A stretch of 64,000 nucleotides of DNA from Sphingopyxis sp. GW247-27LB (lineage in GTDB: Bacteria > Pseudomonadota > Alphaproteobacteria > Sphingomonadales > Sphingomonadaceae). Position 1 is the first letter of the stretch; each line of letters starts with the position of its first letter. A program made the position numbers and the translations under genes. The stretch covers positions 180,841-244,840 of the forward strand of contig NZ_NIWD01000009.1 in the NCBI RefSeq assembly GCF_002277025.1. The letters run 5' to 3'. This document shows positions 4,983 through 60,154 of the stretch, in pieces. A model generated the notes under the pieces. That model did not search any database and had not been told where the DNA came from. It saw nothing but the letters and a program-made list of their open reading frames with translations.

Positions 4983-4988
4983 GGTAAC

Positions 4989-5067
4989 GGCACCGGCCCG
5001 CTCCCCCACCCGGCCTCCCATCTCAGGATACGCTGTGGGAGGCCGGGTGGGGGAGCGGGCCGGTGCC
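4989..5067. repeat. Intergenic palindrome, family B (first copy)
   Basis: Perfect 32-base inverted arms at 4989-5020 and 5036-5067, beginning GGCACCGGCCCGCTCCCCCA, around a 15-base loop. A second copy of the same arms lies at 60050-60130, so it is a dispersed element. It sits between leuD and the quinone oxidoreductase gene and could end the leuCD transcript, although no T-run follows. Confidence 0.92.
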
Positions 5068-5090
5068 GCCACAACGAAGAAAAGGAGACA

Positions 5091-14635: not shown

Positions 14636-14724
14636 CCGTTCGTGCTGAGCCTGTCGAAGCACCGTTCTTCCCTTCCACGCCCGAAGAAGGAAGAACGGCC
14701 CTTCGACAGGCTCAGGGCGAACGG
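14636..14724. repeat. Intergenic palindrome, family C (CTGAGCCTGTCGAAG)
   Basis: 34-base arms at 14636-14669 and 14691-14724 are inverted copies with four mismatches; both contain CTGAGCCTGTCGAAG or its complement, a word scattered through sphingomonad genomes. A TTTTTT run follows at once on the + strand, so it may also terminate the chemoreceptor transcript. Confidence 0.87.
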
Positions 14725-26163: not shown

Positions 26164-26238
26164 TCGTCATGCCGGACTTGATCCGGCATCCATTCTCGCC
26201 AAGCCGTGATCGACCCCGGATCAAGTCCGGGGTGACGA
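26164..26238. repeat. Intergenic palindrome, family D (CCGGACTTGATCCGG), intergenic copy
   Basis: Inverted arms begin TCGTCATGCCGGACTTGATC at 26164 and end in the complementary word at 26238. Each arm also holds the shorter palindrome CCGGACTTGATCCGG or CCGGATCAAGTCCGG. It lies between the ligA stop and the sterol desaturase start. A second copy of this family sits inside truB at 43935-44012. Confidence 0.9.
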
Positions 26239-29859: not shown

Positions 29860-29974
29860 CCCCTCCTCTTCAGAGGAGGGGTTGGGGTGGTGGACGCCGG
29901 TGCGGGGCACCACCCCGCTGCGACTAACGAGCAAAGCTCGTAAGTCTCGCTGCCCCTCCTCTGAAGAGGAGGGG
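29860..29974. repeat. Intergenic palindrome, family E (CCCCTCCTCTTCAGAGGAGG)
   Basis: CCCCTCCTCT and AGAGGAGGGG form a self-complementary unit at about 29860-29881, repeated near 29953-29975. Between them is a second hairpin (GGGGTGGTG at about 29885, CACCACCCC at about 29908) and a third around GCGACT/AGTCTCGC. It fills the gap between the divergent-facing ends of DUF559 and recN. Confidence 0.85.
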
Positions 29975-36582: not shown

Positions 36583-36678
36583 CGTCATTGCGAGGAGCGT
36601 AGCGACGAAGCAATCTCCAGCTATCGGCCTTGCGCAAGGCCGATAGCTGGAGATTGCTTCGCTCCGCTCGCAATGACG
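36583..36678. repeat. Intergenic palindrome, family F (CGTCATTGCGAG ... GAAGCAATC)
   Basis: Long inverted arms start CGTCATTGCGAG at 36583 and end CTCGCAATGACG at 36678. The inner parts, from GAAGCAATCTCCAGCTATCG to the centre at about 36633, match perfectly; the outer parts differ by a few inserted bases. It lies between convergent genes (EAL and mfd) and may act as a two-way transcription end. It resembles a small non-autonomous mobile element. Confidence 0.9.
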
Positions 36679-40516: not shown

Positions 40517-40628
40517 TCCCCTCCCTTTTAGGGAGGGGCTGGGGGTAGGTAGCCGCGAAGGCGGCATTCTTTCGTGGGCTCGCTCCGCTCGCGCACCCAC
40601 CCCTAACCCCTCCCTAAAAGGGAGGGGA
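40517..40628. repeat. Intergenic palindrome, family G (CCCTCCCTTTTAGGGAGGGG)
   Basis: Arms from 40517 (TCCCCTCCCTTTTAGGGAGG) and to 40628 are inverted copies; each arm is itself nearly palindromic. GGTAGG at about 40545 pairs with ACCCACC at about 40594. It lies in the 280-bp gap between sdhE (reading away) and the pnp terminator, which otherwise shows no gene. Confidence 0.87.
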
Positions 40629-40715: not shown

Positions 40716-43022
<2,307 letters not shown>

Positions 43023-43215: not shown

Positions 43216-43485
43216 TTATTTACGAAGACCCAGCTTCGCGATGAGCGCCTGATAGCGGCCCTCGTCCTTCTTGCGAAGATAGTCGAGCAGGCTGCGGCGC
43301 TTGTTGACCATCATCAGCAGCCCGCGGCGGCTGTGATTGTCCTTGTGGTGCGCCTTGAAGTGATCGGTCAGCGTGTTGATGCGGTCGGTCAGGATCGCGA
43401 CCTGGACTTCCGGCGAACCGGTGTCGCCCTTGGCACGGGCATTGTCCTTGATGACTTCGGCTTTGCGCTCGGCGGTAATCGACAT
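43216..43485 (-). CDS. rpsO: 30S ribosomal protein S15
   Basis: 89 residues, the standard length. It binds 16S rRNA early in assembly of the 30S platform. Family features include the start [20 protein letters not shown], the [16 protein letters not shown] segment and the basic [20 protein letters not shown]. It follows truB on the minus strand with 25 bp between, and precedes pnp. In many bacteria S15 represses its own translation through the leader; no such structure was identified here. Confidence 0.98.
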
Positions 43486-43510: not shown

Positions 43511-44470
43511 TTACAGATTGAAGCCCCGCACGACCTTCAGCGTTCCCGCCGAAACCTCTATCAGGGCGATGGGACGATATTCGCCGTCCCGTCCCCAATA
43601 GAGCCCGTCGTGCGTGCTTGCCCCGGTCCAGACGCGACCCTGGCGGATCGCCCCTGCCGCTTCCGGGGAAAGGTCCAGAGCCGGGATGTCGACCAGCCCT
43701 GCCTCCAGCGGCAGAATAATCTCTGATTGCGCGGCCCCTTGGCCGAAAGCGTTCAATTTGTCCAGCGAAATCGCGTCGTCGAGCGTGAAGGGCCCCGCTT
43801 TCGTGCGGCGGAGCATGGTGACATGGCCGACGCTGCCGACGGCCTGCGCGATGTCGCGCGCAAGGCTGCGGATATAGGTGCCTTTCGAGACATGGGCGGT
43901 AAAGGTGATGCTGTCGAGCCTCCCTTCCTCCTTCTCGTCACTCCGGACTTGATCCGGGGCCCCGCTTTCCGGCGCCGCTGAGCGGGACCCCGGATCAAGT
44001 CCGGGATGACGAAGGCTGAAGACCGTCACGCTGCGCGCCTTCATCTCGACCGCTTCGCCCTTGCGCGCCAAGTCATAGGCGCGCTGGCCGTCCACCTTGA
44101 TCGCGGAAAAGGCAGGCGGCACCTGCTCGATGTCGCCGGTGAAGCGCGGCAGCACGGCCTCGACCTCGGCGAGCGTCGGCCGCACGTCGCTGGTCGCGAC
44201 CACCTCGCCTTCGGCATCGAGCCCCGCGGTCTCGGTGCCGAACGCCACCGTAAAGTCGTAGACCTTGCTCGCATCGAGCATGCGGCCGGTCAGCTTCGTC
44301 GCCTCGCCGAGCGCGATCGGCAGCACCCCCGACGCGAGCGGGTCGAGCGTGCCGCCATGCCCGACCTTGACCTTGCCCAGCCCGGCCTCGCGGCACACGC
44401 GCTTGACCGCGCCCACCGCCTGGGTCGAGCCGAGGCCCACGGGTTTGTCGAGGATGATCCAGCCGTTCAT
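43511..44470 (-). CDS. truB: tRNA pseudouridine(55) synthase, with an in-frame palindromic insert
   Basis: 319 residues. It converts uridine 55 of tRNA T-arms to pseudouridine. Start MNGWIILDKPVGLGST and the catalytic aspartate D43 in GGTLDPLASGVLP are normal. Residues about 153-179 are encoded by a palindromic repeat of family D and have no counterpart in the family. They interrupt a beta-hairpin turn between ARSVTVFSL and ITFTAHVSKGTYIRSLARD. The 78-base insert keeps the frame. Without it the protein would be about 293 residues, closer to the family norm. Activity is probably kept, as the insert is on a surface turn. Confidence 0.95.
   Translation of the reverse strand: MNGWIILDKPVGLGSTQAVGAVKRVCREAGLGKVKVGHGGTLDPLASGVLPIALGEATKLTGRMLDASKVYDFTVAFGTETAGLDAEGEVVATSDVRPTLAEVEAVLPRFTGDIEQVPPAFSAIKVDGQRAYDLARKGEAVEMKARSVTVFSLRHPGLDPGSRSAAPESGAPDQVRSDEKEEGRLDSITFTAHVSKGTYIRSLARDIAQAVGSVGHVTMLRRTKAGPFTLDDAISLDKLNAFGQGAAQSEIILPLEAGLVDIPALDLSPEAAGAIRQGRVWTGASTHDGLYWGRDGEYRPIALIEVSAGTLKVVRGFNL
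43935..44012. repeat. Family D palindrome inside the truB coding region
   Basis: Inverted 32-base arms at 43935-43966 and 43981-44012 differ at three positions and share the word CCGGACTTGATCCGGGG with the intergenic copy at 26164-26238. The element is 78 bases long, 26 codons exactly, and contains no stop in the truB frame. It encodes a Pro/Gly/Ser-rich loop (HPGLDPGSRSAAP). Confidence 0.94.
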
Positions 44471-44502
44471 CCGCCGCCGCTAGGCCGGTGCGGCGCGGCT
44501 TG

Positions 44503-44934
44503 TCAATTTCGCGGCGGCGTTTCGGCCTTCGCCGCGTCCTTCGCCTTGTCGCGTTCGGCCTTCGACGGCGGCGGCGCCGAGTTCACGAACGACACCAGCG
44601 GGCAGCGCTCGCCGCGCACGACCAGCGTCGCAAAACGGTCGAGCCGCGATTGGCCGCGGGTGTCGAAGCCGATCGCCTGCGCGAAATCGACATCGCGGCA
44701 AATTCCGGCGAACAACCCGTAATACCAGTCGCCGCGGCGGTCCTGCACCCAGATGCCGCGCTCGCGGTCGGCGCGCCAGTTGCGGATCGTCGTGTCGCTG
44801 GGGAAGACGATGCTCGCCTCGGCGCCGATCTCGCGCGACGCGGCCGCAGCCTGTTTCGGGGCGGGCTCGTCGGCCGCCGCTGCAGAAAGGGGAAGCAGCA
44901 TGGCGGCCAGGGAGAGTGCGAGTTTCTGTTTCAT
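44503..44934 (-). CDS. Exported small protein, probably DUF6491 family
   Basis: 143 residues. Signal peptide MKQKLALSLAAMLLPLSAAAA. The mature part has a conserved-looking core IRNWRADRERGIWVQDRRGD, then CRDVDFAQAIGFDTRG and RFATLVVRGERCPLVSFV, which includes two cysteines probably forming a disulphide. This layout fits the DUF6491 family of sphingomonads; I rate the name tentative. The C-terminus is a charged Lys/Ala/Asp tail. It is 32 bp downstream of the truB start on the opposite reading side, same strand. Confidence 0.75.
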   Translation of the reverse strand: MKQKLALSLAAMLLPLSAAAADEPAPKQAAAASREIGAEASIVFPSDTTIRNWRADRERGIWVQDRRGDWYYGLFAGICRDVDFAQAIGFDTRGQSRLDRFATLVVRGERCPLVSFVNSAPPPSKAERDKAKDAAKAETPPRN

Positions 44935-44985
44935 GGCGCGGTGCCTAGCACAGCGCGGCTGAACGGGCGCTGACTTGCGAGCGCC

Positions 44986-45522
44986 CTACCCCCGCCACTC
45001 CCCCGCGAGCAGCGACCAGAGGCCGGTATCGCGCACATGCCCGGTCCAGGTGATGCGCTCGGCGCGGAGCACGCCTTCCTTGATGGCGCCGAGCTTCGCG
45101 ACCGCCGCCTGGCTGCGCTGGTTGCGCTCGTCGATGCGGAATTCGACGCGGCGGATGCCGGCCGCGAAAGCGTGGCCCAGCATCAGCCGCTTCAATCGCC
45201 CGTTGAGCCCGGTGCCGCGCACATCGGGATGGATATAGCTGTTACCGATCTCGATCGTCTGTGCCGACACATCGGCCCGCAGATAAGCCGTCATGCCGAC
45301 CAGCCGGTCGCCGGCGAATACCGCATAGGGCATGCGCGCGGGGTTCGCGAGCAGCGCGGTGAAGGTGGCGTCGAAATGCCCGGGGTCGAAGCTCGACGCA
45401 TAGATCGGCCAGATATCGGGATCGGCGGCGCAGGCCGCGCCAAGCGGCTCGCGATGCGCTTCGACGAGCTTGACGAGCCTCAACTCGCCGTCGACGAGTT
45501 CGGCGTAGAGGCGGTCAAGCAT
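44986..45522 (-). CDS. GNAT family N-acetyltransferase (RimJ/RimL-like)
   Basis: 178 residues. The acetyl-CoA loop region reads [20 protein letters not shown] and is followed by [20 protein letters not shown] and [12 protein letters not shown], which is the pattern of the RimJ/RimL branch that modifies N-termini or amino acids. The acceptor is unknown. The start is at 45522 ([12 protein letters not shown]) and overlaps the tdk stop by eight bases, so the two are co-translated. Confidence 0.88.
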
Positions 45523-46129
45523 CGGCGCCCACCTCCCTTGGCGCCTCCGCCGCCTGGCGCCGCTTTTCCATGAAATGCCGGCGGCACATCGCGACATAGC
45601 GATCGTTGCCGCCGATCTCGGTCTGCGCGCCCTCGACCACCGCGCGACCGCGTTCGTCGACGCGCAGGTTCATCGTCGCCTTGCGCCCGCATTCGCACAC
45701 CGCCTTGAGCTCGACGAGCGCGTCGGCGAGGCCGAGCAGCGCTGCCGAGCCGGGAAACAAATTCGCCGCGAAATCGGTGCGAAGGCCATAGCAGAGCACC
45801 GGAATATTCGCCTCGTCGGCGAGCCGCGCGAGATCGAGCACCTGCGCGCGCGACAGGAACTGCGCCTCGTCGACGAGCACGCAGGCGAGCGGACGCTCGG
45901 CGTTCTCGGCCTGCACCGCCGCCCAAAGGTCGCTGTCGGGGTCGAATTTATGCGCCTCGGCCATCAATCCGATGCGGCTCGTCACCTGCCCCGCGCCGTA
46001 GCGGTCGTCGAGCGCCGCGGTCCACAGCATCGTTTCCATGCCGCGCTCGCGATAGTTGAAATCCGCTTGAAGCAGCGTCGTCGACTTGCCCGCGTTCATG
46101 CTGGCATAATAGAAATAGAGCTTGGCCAT
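45515..46129 (-). CDS. tdk: Thymidine kinase
   Basis: 204 residues, the type II (human TK1-like) form. It phosphorylates thymidine in the salvage pathway. The P-loop [13 protein letters not shown] is at residues 8-20, followed by VDEAQFLS. The lasso-domain zinc cysteines are in VCECGRKA and CRR. The start [15 protein letters not shown] at 46129 is unambiguous. It precedes the GNAT gene and lies 43 bp from the nsrR stop. Confidence 0.96.
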
Positions 46130-46172
46130 GCGCCGAGCGATACCGCCTTGGCCGCGCCACGCAAATCGAAAA

Positions 46173-46604
46173 TCAGGCGACCCCGAGCAGCGCGCGGAAG
46201 CGCCCGGGCTGCGGCACCAGATCGGTGAGCCGATAGCCGTCGAGATGCGTGAGGAACGCCGCGAGCGCCCCGCCGAGCGCGCCCTGCAAGCCGCAGCCGC
46301 CACACACCGGGCAGGTCGAGGTCGCGGGGTCCATGCACTCGACCAGCCCCTCCAGATTCTCGAACTCGCGCACCACCGTGCCGACGATCACCGCCTCGGG
46401 TTCGCGCGCCAGCGTCAGCCCGCCGCCGCGCCCGCGCTGCGCGCTGACATAGCCGAGCGCCTGCAGCCGCTGCGCGACCTTGGCGAGATGGTTGCGCGAA
46501 ATGCCATATTGGCCCGCGATCTCGTCGACCGACATCTGGCGGCCGGTCGCGGATAGCGCCATCAGGATGCGCAGGGCATAATCGCTATGGAGACTGAGCC
46601 GCAT
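46173..46604 (-). CDS. nsrR: Rrf2-family repressor, NsrR-like (nitric oxide sensing)
   Basis: 143 residues. The winged helix region reads [19 protein letters not shown]. The iron-sulphur cluster cysteines are C90, C98, C101 and C104 in [20 protein letters not shown]. NsrR senses nitric oxide through its cluster and lets go of DNA. The gene is divergent from a truncated haemoglobin and a DUF1971 protein, both typical NO-stress genes, which supports the NsrR call over IscR or RirA. Two operator-like sequences lie in the 82-bp gap, so it should repress itself and the haemoglobin operon. Confidence 0.88.
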
Positions 46605-46610
46605 AAAAGT

Positions 46611-46625
46611 GGTATATTAGATATT
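46611..46625. promoter_or_regulatory. NsrR-like operator 1
   Basis: GGTATATTAGATATT is an imperfect palindrome lying seven bases before the nsrR start codon. It matches operator 2 (46652-46666) at 12 of 15 positions. NsrR sites are AT-rich inverted repeats with ATGTAT-type halves. The assignment is inferred from position and similarity, not binding. Confidence 0.6.
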
Positions 46626-46651
46626 GCTTTTTGCGGCAACCCGCTTAAAGA

Positions 46652-46666
46652 GGTATTTCAGATACT
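46652..46666. promoter_or_regulatory. NsrR-like operator 2
   Basis: GGTATTTCAGATACT has GTAT/ATAC halves and shares GGTAT and AGATA with operator 1. The start-to-start distance is 41 bases, near four helical turns, so two dimers would sit on the same face. It lies 20 bases upstream of the haemoglobin start. Confidence 0.62.
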
Positions 46667-46686
46667 CAATATAGAGTCGGAACATT

Positions 46687-47166
46687 ATGACGACACGAAC
46701 GGTCCAGGCCCATCCCCACGCCATCGCCGCCCGGGAGGAGCGACGCGCCGAGGCGCTGGCCATGGGCATCGACGAGCCTTTCATCGCCGAACTGGTCGAT
46801 CGCTTCTACGCCTCGGTGCGCGAGGATGCGATGCTCGGCCCGATCTTCGACGCGCGCATCGACGACTGGCCGAAGCACCTCGGCCAGATGAACCGCTTCT
46901 GGCAGTCGATCCTGCTCAGCGCCGGCAATTTCACCGGCAATCCGATGATGAAGCATCTGGCGATCCCGACGATCGGGCAGGAGCATTTCCAGCAGTGGCT
47001 ACGGCTCTTCTACCGGACGCTGCACGATATCGCCCCGACCCCGGAAGCCACCGCCCATGTCGGCGCGAAGGCGCGGATGATCGCCGAGAGCCTGCTCACC
47101 GGCATCTGGGTTCACCGCGACCGGGACGATCCCCTCGCGAAGAAAGTGGAGTTGCCCGATGTCTGA
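46687..47166 (+). CDS. Group III truncated haemoglobin
   Basis: 159 residues. Group III features are present: FIAELVDRFYASVREDAML, KHLGQMNRFWQSILLSAGNF, and GQEHFQQWLRLFYRTL with the likely proximal histidine. These globins are thought to handle nitric oxide or peroxide, sometimes with a partner reductase. It is divergent from nsrR and starts an operon with a membrane protein and a DUF1971 gene, overlapping the first by eight bases. Confidence 0.93.
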   Translation: MTTRTVQAHPHAIAAREERRAEALAMGIDEPFIAELVDRFYASVREDAMLGPIFDARIDDWPKHLGQMNRFWQSILLSAGNFTGNPMMKHLAIPTIGQEHFQQWLRLFYRTLHDIAPTPEATAHVGAKARMIAESLLTGIWVHRDRDDPLAKKVELPDV

Positions 47167-47572
47167 TCTCCCCTCCGTTCCCCCGCCCGTCTATCGCTCC
47201 AACGATCCCTATGAAACCAGCGGGGTCCAGGCGGGCTTCCAGCTTCCGCGCTCGACCTGGCACGCGATGTTCGCCTGCTATGCGGTCTTCTTTCTCGGCA
47301 TCTTCGCGGCGACCGGGCGCGATGCGGCGACGGTGATGATGCTCGTCATCTCGGGCCTCTACATGCTGATGTTCTTCGGCACCGCGAAGCTGCTCAACGC
47401 GCAGAAGGGCGCGGAGCATGATTCGCCGCTCGACCGCAGCGATGGCCTGCTCGACACCTGGACCGGGCCGATGGACCGGCGCACCGTCGCGGCGCAGATT
47501 CTCGCGGTGCCCGCTGGCTTCGCCTTCCTTGGCGTCACCTTCTTCGTCGTCCGAGCGGCCGCGGGCTTTTAG
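47159..47572 (+). CDS. Membrane protein of unknown function in the NsrR cluster
   Basis: 137 residues with three hydrophobic segments (about 37-52, 57-75 and 113-135). A Pro-rich leader VPPPVYRSNDPYETSGVQ precedes the first. No domain was recognised. It overlaps the truncated haemoglobin gene and lies three bases before the DUF1971 gene, so it is expressed with them. A role linked to nitric-oxide stress is inferred from this placement alone. Confidence 0.72.
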   Translation: MSDLPSVPPPVYRSNDPYETSGVQAGFQLPRSTWHAMFACYAVFFLGIFAATGRDAATVMMLVISGLYMLMFFGTAKLLNAQKGAEHDSPLDRSDGLLDTWTGPMDRRTVAAQILAVPAGFAFLGVTFFVVRAAAGF

Positions 47573-47575
47573 ACC

Positions 47576-47878
47576 ATGACCGTGCCGATCGCCGAGCGCG
47601 GGCCGCCGCTTCCCTCCGGCGCCCGCGCCTACCGGCGGATCGGCCCGTTCGGGGCGGACGCCATTCCGGCGGGCCTGCTCCGCCGCCACGACCTCAAGGA
47701 GGGCGCATGGGGGCTGCTGTCGGTCCTCGCCGGGTCGATCCGTTTCCACTGGGACGACGAGACAGGGGGCGCCCGCCTGTTGAAGACCGGCGACACGATG
47801 CTGATCCCACCCTGCGTTCCGCATCATCTGGAACGGCAAGGGTCGGTGACGATCGAAATCGCCTTCTGCGCGCCCTGA
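47576..47878 (+). CDS. DUF1971 (YeaR/TehB N-terminal-like) cupin protein
   Basis: 100 residues. It matches the DUF1971 fold: SGARAYRRIGPFGADAIPAG, LLRRHDLKEGAWGLLSVL and CVPHHLE. E. coli YeaR of this family is induced by nitrate and nitric oxide through NsrR, which fits the cluster. The small beta-barrel could bind metal through its late histidines. Third gene of the haemoglobin operon, it starts three bases after the upstream stop. Confidence 0.85.
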   Translation: MTVPIAERGPPLPSGARAYRRIGPFGADAIPAGLLRRHDLKEGAWGLLSVLAGSIRFHWDDETGGARLLKTGDTMLIPPCVPHHLERQGSVTIEIAFCAP

Positions 47879-47950
47879 CCTCCGCTTGACTCACCGCTGC
47901 TCGCTGTCATGCTGCGCTCAAATGCCGCAGCATGACGGGGAGAGCTGCCG

Positions 47951-49372
47951 ATGCGCCTGATGCCGGTGACCGACGCGATGTTCCTGTGGGGGGAAAGCCG
48001 CGAGATGCCGATGCACATCGGCGGCATCAACCTCTACACCCTCCCCGACGATGTCGACGAGACCGAATGGCTGAACGAGCAACTCGCGCTGCTCCGCCAG
48101 TCGGAAGGGCTGCGGCGCCCGTTCAGCGAAGTGCTGAAGCTGACCCCGCTCGGCCAGTACGGCCCGATCCGGCTCGAGCCCGACCGCGACATCGACATGC
48201 ACTATCATGTCCGCGCCGCGGCGCTGCCCAAGCCGGGGCGCTACCGCGAGATGTTCGAACTCGCCTCGCGCCTCCATTCGGGGCTGCTCGACCGCACCCG
48301 GCCGTTGTGGGAGATCACGCTGATCTCGGGCCTGCCGAACCGCCAGATCGCGACCTTCAAGAAGATCCACCACGCGTTGATGGACGGCGCGGCGAGCATC
48401 CATTTCTATAATTCGATGCTGTCGCCCGACCCCAAGGAGCGGCGCACCGCTTCGCCGCTGTCGGTCGAGGCCTATGAAGCCTATAAGCGCCAGTTCCCGC
48501 TGCCCAGGAAGGCGCCGCGCCCCAGCCTGACCGACATCGGCGCGATCGGCGAATTCCTGAAGGAGCAATGGGGGAACAGCGTCGGGGTGACCAAGGCGCT
48601 CAATCAATATGCCGCGGCAATGGTCGGCCTGGGCGGCGAGGGACTCGTCACGCCCTTCGCCGGCGTGCCGCGCACCAGCTTCAACCGCAACATCACCGGC
48701 GCGCGCCGCTTCGTCGCGCAAAGCTGGTCGCTCGACCGCGTCCGTGCGGTGGGCAAGGCCTATGACGGGACGATCAACGATGCGGTGCTCGGCATGTGCG
48801 CGGGCGCGATGCGGAAATATCTGCAATCGCTGAACGAACTGCCCGACAAGCCCCTGAAAGCCATGGCGCCGGTGTCGATCCGCCCCAAGGACGACGTCGA
48901 TTCGGGCAATTCGGTCGCCTCGGTCACCGCCAATCTCGCAACCAACATCGACGATCCCGCCGAACGGATGGCGGCGATCCAGGCGTCGATGAACGCGGCC
49001 AAGGCACAGCTCCGCGCGATGACCGCCCAGCAGATTCAGCTCTACACCGCGATCACCAGCTTCCCGCAGATGCTCACCGCGCTGACCCGCACCGCCGACA
49101 AATTCCCCGCCTATTCGGCGACCATCTCGAACGTGCCGGGACCGCGCGAGCAGATGTATTGGAACGGCGCGCGGCTCGACGGCATGTATCCCGCGAGCAT
49201 CCCGGTCGACGGCATGGCGATGAACATCACCCAAGTCAGCAACAACAAGAATATCGACTTCGGCATCACCGCCTGCCGCCGCAGCGTCCCGCATGCGCAG
49301 CGGATGATCGACTATCTGGAGGATGCGCTGGTCGAGCTGGAGGCAGCGGCGGGGATCAGGAAGGGGAAGTAG
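47951..49372 (+). CDS. Wax ester synthase/diacylglycerol acyltransferase (WS/DGAT) family
   Basis: 473 residues. The acyltransferase motif HHALMDG is at 140-146, the catalytic histidine being H141, and the family's later NVPGPREQMYWNGARLDGMY is present. These enzymes join an acyl-CoA to an alcohol or diacylglycerol to make wax esters or triacylglycerol. The motif is complete, so activity is plausible. The start is ATG at 47951 after GGGGAG. It is the only lipid-storage candidate in the window. Confidence 0.92.
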   Translation: MRLMPVTDAMFLWGESREMPMHIGGINLYTLPDDVDETEWLNEQLALLRQSEGLRRPFSEVLKLTPLGQYGPIRLEPDRDIDMHYHVRAAALPKPGRYREMFELASRLHSGLLDRTRPLWEITLISGLPNRQIATFKKIHHALMDGAASIHFYNSMLSPDPKERRTASPLSVEAYEAYKRQFPLPRKAPRPSLTDIGAIGEFLKEQWGNSVGVTKALNQYAAAMVGLGGEGLVTPFAGVPRTSFNRNITGARRFVAQSWSLDRVRAVGKAYDGTINDAVLGMCAGAMRKYLQSLNELPDKPLKAMAPVSIRPKDDVDSGNSVASVTANLATNIDDPAERMAAIQASMNAAKAQLRAMTAQQIQLYTAITSFPQMLTALTRTADKFPAYSATISNVPGPREQMYWNGARLDGMYPASIPVDGMAMNITQVSNNKNIDFGITACRRSVPHAQRMIDYLEDALVELEAAAGIRKGK

Positions 49373-49467
49373 AAAACCTCCGCGCGGGCTTTGACGAATC
49401 CGCTTTCGCACTCCCCCGAAACGCGCGATACATCGCCGTCAGGGCGGCTAGCCGAAGACGGGTGACC

Positions 49468-50049
49468 ATGCCGACATTCGCCATCTCATCGCTTGCGACG
49501 GCCGCGCTCCTGCTCGCGGCGCCGGCGGCCAGCGCCCCCGCGACCCTCGCCTACCGCATCGACAGCGCGGCGAGCCGCGTTGACGCGAAGGTCGGCTTTC
49601 TCGGCATCGGCAGCCGCACCGCCCATTTCCCCTCGGTATCGGGCAGCGTCGCGCTATCGCCCGGCGCGATGGACAGGATCGATCTGAACGTGGCGATCGA
49701 CGCGCGCCAGCTCAGCGCGAGCGATGCGCTCACCACCGGGCGGCTGAAGGGCAGGAATTTCTTCGACGTCGACCATCATCCGATCGTCCGCTTCGCCGGC
49801 CATGCGCTGGCCATGACCGGGGCGACGACAGGCAATGTGTCGGGCGACCTCACCGCGCGCGGCGTAACGAAGCCGGTCGTGCTCGCCGTCACCTTCTCCA
49901 ACCCGCCGGCACGCGCGACCGGACGCGAGACCATCGACCTCACCGGAACGACGACGATCAACCGCCGCGATTTCGGCATGACCGCCTATTCGTTCATCGT
50001 CGGCCGCAAGGTGCGGATCATCATCAACACCCGGCTGGTGCCGGCCTGA
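49468..50049 (+). CDS. YceI family periplasmic lipid-binding protein
   Basis: 193 residues with a signal peptide (ATAALLLAAPAASA). The lipocalin-like YceI domain follows: YRIDSAASRVDAKVGFLG, GRLKGRNFFDVDHHPIVRF, GDLTARGVTKPVVL and NRRDFGMTAYSFIVGRKVRI. YceI proteins bind isoprenoid or ubiquinone-like lipids in the periplasm. In E. coli yceI is induced under stress. It lies 95 bp after the WS/DGAT gene on the same strand and is convergent with rbfA. A GTG two codons upstream is an alternative start. Confidence 0.9.
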   Translation: MPTFAISSLATAALLLAAPAASAPATLAYRIDSAASRVDAKVGFLGIGSRTAHFPSVSGSVALSPGAMDRIDLNVAIDARQLSASDALTTGRLKGRNFFDVDHHPIVRFAGHALAMTGATTGNVSGDLTARGVTKPVVLAVTFSNPPARATGRETIDLTGTTTINRRDFGMTAYSFIVGRKVRIIINTRLVPA

Positions 50050-50079
50050 TGAGCGCGAGCATGAGGGACAGCAAGGAGT

Positions 50080-60023: not shown

Positions 60024-60049
60024 TGTTCTTGTCTGGCTGAGCCAGACGC

Positions 60050-60130
60050 GGCACCGGCCCGCTCCCCCACCCGGCCTCCCATAGAATACTATGTCGGGAG
60101 GCCGCCGGGTGGGGGGAGCGGGCCGGTGCC
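60050..60130. repeat. Intergenic palindrome, family B (second copy)
   Basis: The arms start GGCACCGGCCCGCTCCCCCA at 60050, as in the copy at 4989, and end at 60130. The right arm has two small insertions relative to the first copy, so this one is slightly degraded. It lies between the VOC gene and the convergent HerA-like gene. Confidence 0.92.
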
Positions 60131-60154
60131 GCCTTCGCCGTCAGGCGAAGAAAA

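Follow-up and report, generated by a model that had tools for sequence, protein, structure and literature searches.

One beta-hairpin tip of TruB holds in-frame palindromic repeats of unrelated families in Sphingopyxis and other sphingomonads

How does a long palindrome come to lie in frame within a conserved enzyme gene, and is it the repeat or the place that is unusual? The question is raised by truB of Sphingopyxis sp. GW247-27LB, on a stretch of 64,000 nucleotides which, taken whole, is called the window here. The gene was recognised as full-length truB by Pfam and NCBIfam (TIGR00431, E 4e-68). The family-model scan at the locus covered truB only, and the neighbours are taken by us, from sequence and position, to be rpsO and pnp and, farther upstream, rbfA, infB, ylxR and nusA. 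The features in the window are as follows.

43511..44470, minus strand: truB, tRNA pseudouridine-55 synthase, 319 aa (Pfam, NCBIfam TIGR00431, AlphaFold2/Foldseek match to 1k8w_A)
43935..44012, no strand assigned: family A palindrome made of two CGTC-type REP units in head-to-head arrangement (repeat search, folding, REP-unit scan)
43935..43940, plus strand: TCGTCA terminus of one REP unit (sequence)
44007..44012, minus strand: TCGTCA terminus of the other REP unit, its first T being the third base of the Leu153 codon (sequence)
43943..43957, plus strand: core word CCGGACTTGATCCGG, arm 1 (word search)
43990..44004, minus strand: core word CCGGACTTGATCCGG, arm 2 (word search)
43910..44011, minus strand: hairpin-tip loop (residues 154-187), site of insertion in every genome compared (loop comparison, AlphaFold2 model)
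43216-43485: presumed rpsO, neighbour of truB
40716-43022: presumed pnp, neighbour of truB
26164..26238, no strand assigned: family A copy outside truB, arm pair CGTCATGCCGG / CCGGGGTGACG (sequence, word search)

An earlier note on this DNA had described a 78-bp palindrome within truB, and this was borne out. The inverted repeat lies entirely within the gene with 85% complementarity over 39-nt half-arms, and the ungapped palindrome scorer placed a 14-nt apex between 32-nt arms. Folded as RNA with 10-nt flanks it gave -67 and -73 kcal/mol for the two strands (z about -9), and none of 200 shuffles folded as well. The further claim, that the element is exactly 26 codons with no stop, held in its second part only. 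There are no in-frame stops, but the palindrome starts at the third base of the Leu153 codon, off the codon boundary, and the net gain is 19 codons, not 26, because the loop around the element also differs (102 nt in the window truB versus 45 nt in the nearest element-free relatives, L059 and L078).

The AlphaFold2 model of the window TruB (46 window and locus TruB proteins) had a mean pLDDT of 89 and agreed with the proposed position at a beta-hairpin turn. Strands 146-154 and 187-194 flank the loop, within which residues 161-179 have pLDDT below 50, and the model matched E. coli TruB bound to RNA (1k8w_A; Foldseek E 3.9e-29, TM 0.82). The loop is predicted to be disordered and the insert to form the floppy tip of the beta-hairpin.

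The repeat is also dispersed, as had been claimed. The core word shared with 26164-26238 is an exact match, and the 4.79-Mb genome contains 67 exact copies of it, two for each element with both arms, with the reversed word giving 0. At up to 2 mismatches the window itself contains 4 matches, all exact, with 0.28 expected, and the arm pair of 26164..26238 recurs in the majority of Sphingopyxis truB inserts of family A. Eight window palindromes score at least 18; three codon-shuffled versions gave 0, 0 and 0. Further strong palindromes of several families, seven in all, are present in the window at 2800-2889, 4988-5068, 14636-14724, 29860-29974, 36606-36661, 40517-40628 and 60048-60132, that at 40517-40628 lying directly past the end of pnp. 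The words of families E, F and G, found in truB of other genomes, are also present in palindromes outside truB in the own genome. The family C insert of genome G016 has many matches in its own and other genomes over positions 2 to ~130 of 138, at up to 96% identity (89 in G016 and 94 in G071, where palindromic copies can match on both strands), and the family D insert of G076 has other matches in G076 and G062 over nearly its full length, at up to 85%. Since the C and D inserts match dispersed copies nearly end to end, the truB copies are whole members of dispersed families.

At a cut-off of one mismatch the window insert contains one CGTC unit, ATCCCGGA-CTTGA-TCCGGGGT, with 1 mismatch and with the tag, stem (8-9 bp) and loop (4-5 nt) expected of such units; the other unit of 43935..44012 has 2 stem mismatches when the stems are compared by eye. 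There are 123 CGTC units in 864 kb of the own genome versus 24, 36 and 32 in codon-shuffled versions. The window unit has the tail CCC, and tails in the own-genome sample were CGC (17), CCC (16), GAC (13) and CCA (11), chance units included. Both units were found at no more than one stem mismatch in 18/32 A, 3/4 B, 3/5 F and 2/2 G inserts, and no CGTC unit was found in 84 element-free loops or in the inserts of families C (0/8), D (0/19), E (0/8) and H (0/4; a mixed bag of four unlike sequences). Judged by sequence, the published CGTC-tagged REPs accommodate families A, B, F and G; C, D, E and H fall outside them and are classed only as palindromic repeats.

CGTC REPs of Alphaproteobacteria are described as mostly head-to-head dimers, mostly with a CCA tail and with no dedicated transposase (Di Nocera et al. 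2013, PMC3733652), and the CGTC tag, 8-bp stem, 4-5 nt loop and dimers given in the available text resemble those of families A, B, F and G. The same text takes away the newness that the earlier note had attached to a palindrome inside truB, since REPs within truB of S. alaskensis, E. litoralis and S. maltophilia are reported in one sentence and RPE-1 in truB of R. conorii is mentioned. It argues that intragenic REPs occupy flexible loops. In as much of PMC3733652 as was available, no site is given for the truB inserts, genes of the same functional category other than recB have REPs at different sites, and the turnover of many families at one site that is present here is absent. The RPEs of Rickettsia are likewise palindromes in frame within protein genes (PMC10969869), that of R. 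conorii truB among them (PMC3733652), and the in-frame, stop-free palindrome in the conserved truB of the window is RPE-like in this respect; in the available parts of both papers, however, one RPE family enters many genes, whereas here one truB site receives many families. No description of a same-site truB hotspot was found in the open-licence literature searched. What is new here is that the site is fixed, that unrelated families replace one another there and that the inserts decay; REPs inside truB were already known.

The REPIN/RAYT system, as far as the available sources describe it, shares the inverted REP pair, the long hairpin, the non-autonomous character and the dispersal, but differs in that a RAYT domain is found in only 15/80 genus genomes and is absent from the genomes rich in family C. 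A RAYT (Y1_Tnp) link was considered and is unsupported. The own genome has one Y1_Tnp gene, on a 3.4-kb locus without A, B or E core words, and no Y1_Tnp gene was found in G016 and G071, in which C-insert matches abound. Close to the single Y1_Tnp gene of the own genome there is a perfect inverted repeat of ~28 nt (L109, 1883-1955), unlike the truB families.

Eighty Sphingopyxis genomes were searched, of which 77 have a real truB and 76 an assessable loop; G048, G067 and G068 gave weak matches and no truB, and G065 is broken up by contig ends. Throughout the genus the protein is similar on either side of one turn, but the contents of the turn differ widely. The alignment suggested in the earlier note showed the palindromic insert to be present in some relatives and absent from others: an element or remnant sits at the turn, in frame, in 57/76 assessable genomes and belongs to one of five families, A to E. 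Seventy-two loops were parsed jointly and used for the tree (A 32, D 11, C 6, B 4, E 3, none 16). Four (L092, L093, L101 and L104) were read separately; L093 has family A and L092 none, which brings the count to 57 with and 17 without, all in frame. The peptides are RHPGLDPGS...DQVRGDE and RHAGLDPAS...WTPDQVRGDE for A, RHPGEGRD...GLRRGD for B, PLPFRGGVGV...PSPEGEG for C, ILPTCGEVAA or ILPGTGRGT...GPPPRAGEE for D and ELVEG...STSSG for E, and element-free loops are short, for example ELHPAPAGPLES. Loops with an element label folded better than shuffles, at z -3 or beyond, in 50/56 cases and empty loops in none; the 6/56 that fell short of z -3 were assigned a family by motif. Labels assigned by hand were L063, L069, L094 and L095 (remnants of A), L066 (decayed C) and L273 (E). 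The number of groups from automatic BLAST components ranged from 4 to 15 with the cut-off chosen, since some families are linked by the conserved R segment and by GC-rich arms; families were therefore named by core words. The remarkable feature is the site and not family A, since in this genus alone the site is occupied by no fewer than five unrelated families.

The site is also used outside the genus. From 103 sphingomonad genomes, evenly drawn, 101 gave a match; after two of the own genus were counted there, G095 (contig edge) and G101 (truncated) were excluded and G093 was counted once, 97 loops were assessable and 94 entered a tree. Of these 97 non-Sphingopyxis loops, 25 have elements (families C-H by core word), 2 are uncertain, 44 are short, 23 have nothing but a conserved non-palindromic segment and 3 are long loops that contain no known word. 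Shuffles were beaten at z -3 by 22/26 labelled loops that were folded and by no other loop; the remaining 4/26 were assigned by motif. The L277 loop, of 93 residues, has F-type and E-type words in tandem, and in two genera represented by two genomes each the families differ within the genus (L240 vs L252; L285 vs L288). Named records show the same pattern in Sphingorhabdus, Novosphingobium, Sphingomonas and others; they overlap the samples and were kept out of the counts. In 58 genomes across the class, 56 had a TruB match, two of them in the sphingomonad family and the other 54 as a single unsplit match. From other alphaproteobacterial families 28 loci were fetched, and the 23 loops that were readable were all short.

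The conserved segment, S-F-TT-GRPDPYDPxAPLELADS, has 24 residues and occupies the same turn in 30/94 parsed loops outside the genus (L234, L247, L276 and 27 more). It is not palindromic (z near 0 where it is alone) and it is clustered on the tree, requiring 7 changes versus a shuffled mean of 25.7, with 0/500 shuffles as low. Over 29 sequences its third positions diverge like those of the core (0.572 and 0.553) and its positions 1+2 (0.196) far less. By these values the segment is old and under purifying selection. A recognised repeat stands just ahead of it in 7/30, and the segment is possibly a domesticated old insertion. Its conservation in 30/94 genomes might be taken to mean that a filled turn is an ordinary family-wide feature of sphingomonad TruB, but it is a different and non-palindromic sequence. 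For the palindromic inserts such a feature is refuted by their variation in presence, family and length between close sisters, and we regard this explanation as having next to no chance of being correct.

Reading frame was kept almost without exception. All parsed loops are in frame and free of stops (72/72 in the genus and 94/94 outside it) and, with other parsings included, 74/76 and 97/97 loops are in frame, a total of 171/173. When 77 own-genome palindromes were placed in 6 frames each, 81/462 (17.5%) were in frame and stop-free; a p-value for this result is withheld because related genomes share insertions. Both out-of-frame genes come from fragmented assemblies, in which assembly error is possible. 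In G036 (L104) a single REP lies at the loop, on a 3.7-kb contig. In G064 (L101) a deletion that ends in the repeat took the element and part of the preceding strand. These counts bear on the suggestion that the element is never translated, because the ribosome passes over it or because it is cut out of the RNA. Mitochondrial bypass elements provide the model for a skipped element, and the clean placement of a hairpin in an otherwise normal gene would suit it, but neither frame nor freedom from stops would then be needed, and with 171/173 loops in frame against 17.5% for random placement we consider skipping or removal very improbable.

Turnover was examined on a tree of the 72 genus genomes built from the truB core, the loop being left out. 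At least 30 family changes are required, where the least possible is 5 and the shuffled mean is 36.2; labels are spread near randomly partly because many branches are weak (21/69 starred, bootstrap unsettled), and the 30 changes are not an insertion count because of these branches, the unsettled bootstrap and possible recombination of a single gene. Fully supported sisters nevertheless differ in family, L060 (A) from L083 (D) at 97.2% core identity and L084 (D) from L085 (C) at 96.4%, and the window truB (A) joins L059 and L078 (none) with support of 100/99. The tree of 94 from the family sample requires 24 family changes.

The third positions of family A arms diverge by 0.117 and 0.113 versus 0.277 for the truB core, and positions 1+2 by 0.068 and 0.044 versus 0.057. 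The reverse pattern would be expected of an old peptide under selection. The arms would have arrived recently, been homogenised or been constrained by pairing, and the unpaired changes in several copies favour decay. The truB insert of G023 (L033) has a paired double change, CTGGATC / GATCCAG, which is found nowhere else in that genome. A source within G023 for this variant was considered and rejected, since it is confined to the two arms in truB; among six genomes searched, the variant word has one single match each in G006 and G076.

The convergence of unrelated families leaves room for a use of the hairpin itself, namely that as RNA or DNA it regulates truB-rpsO-pnp expression and that any family which supplies it is kept. 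Most full-length inserts, from unrelated families at one site, do fold at about -40 to -125 kcal/mol, and in G023 pairing was kept through the double change. However, 17/74 in-frame genus loops are without an element, others have decayed without compensation (L038, L053, L057, L060) or shrunk to remnants, and genomes with an insert are also richer in elements elsewhere. Among the matches listed, the median number of other family A peptides was 17 in insert-bearing and 4.5 in empty genomes (Mann-Whitney p 0.006, which ignores kinship and uses counts from the matches listed), as expected if the genomic load of repeats determines how often truB receives one. A selected hairpin seems to us distinctly improbable.

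The neighbours of truB are free of such elements. In 80 named loci of at most 9 kb each, truB has 19 strong palindromes in 73.8 kb and rpsO, pnp, rbfA, infB and ylxR have 0 in 282.9 kb; 20 further strong palindromes are elsewhere in these loci. The best thirty genus loci gave 16 palindromes in truB and 0 in rpsO and pnp, and the best thirty family loci 9 in truB, against none in the four neighbours that they include. A census of 864 kb of the own genome, including two 400-kb sets of stretches, gave 78 palindromes, 30 of them at least 90 bp inside frames of at least 100 aa. Besides truB there are 29 such frames, of which 27 were scanned with Pfam and 3 have domains. In the acyl-CoA dehydrogenase and MoaA-like frames the palindrome is N-terminal to the domains, and in an AAA ATPase a weak palindrome, with a score of 18 and belonging to none of the families described here, is inside. 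Within the 864-kb sample, and among genes of Pfam families, truB alone has a recognised family split by a member of a dispersed repeat. Thirteen other places with the family A peptide were chosen among the matches listed, and 6 of them have a frame of at least 150 aa around an A palindrome. Nine frames were scanned and one has Pfam domains (GGDEF/EAL), the repeat lying in its N-terminal extension.

For one site occupied by many families, in a frame almost always kept, with dispersed copies, turnover between sisters and clean neighbours, the probable explanation is that REP-like repeats are dispersed through these genomes and that the TruB hairpin tip tolerates translated inserts which are in frame and stop-free, drift and loss following. 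In the window a dimer of a REP-like palindromic repeat would have landed in truB and been translated. Several unrelated families are scattered through sphingomonad genomes (no transposase was found for them), and insertions almost anywhere within conserved genes, including those that truncate the protein or break the frame, would be removed by selection. One beta-hairpin tip would tolerate from a few to ~90 extra residues; inserts that are a multiple of three and free of stops would survive there and would later decay, shrink in frame or give way to another family. We infer from these patterns that the loop is harmless to the enzyme and that survival, not aimed insertion, makes the hotspot, and what is said here of the route by which the repeats move is to be taken in the same way.

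Whatever the family, the left end of the insert stays close to a single codon. A constant end of this kind is not what tolerance alone would predict, and it leaves room for a target preference. Insertion would then be aimed, the truB site bearing a DNA target preferred by the mobilising machinery. In genus examples of all five families the left junction is within ~2 codons of the same Leu codon, CTT precedes 24/25 family A inserts that begin CGTCA versus 2/16 empty loops, and by eye a GTGACG word resembling a REP end lies just upstream, the G064 deletion spanning such a word to the element end. However, C, D, E and H are not CGTC REPs, so that a single target for all is hard to see, the CTT is equally explained if the first T of the element is the third base of the codon, and no flank common to the dispersed A, C and E copies of the own genome was seen by eye. 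We consider aimed insertion unlikely. Similarly doubtful is a broader proposal in which the TruB tip has long served as a landing pad, either targeted by several independent repeat systems or favoured for a useful hairpin, and in which GRPDPYDPxAPLELADS is a domesticated ancient insertion that has become a working part.

Under tolerance and survival, the truB site would be a natural record of selfish DNA becoming protein under frame constraint. In-frame palindromes in proteins were previously known gene by gene; here one codon-level site has been followed across ~170 genomes. The tolerance of a fold may thereby be measured from nature, and the site could serve as a visible trap for repeats of obscure mobility. 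The surroundings of the gene vary as well: in the window ~5.6 kb of other open frames (44500-50050) separate truB from rbfA, unlike 58/80 named loci, in which rbfA lies inside the 4-kb flank of truB.
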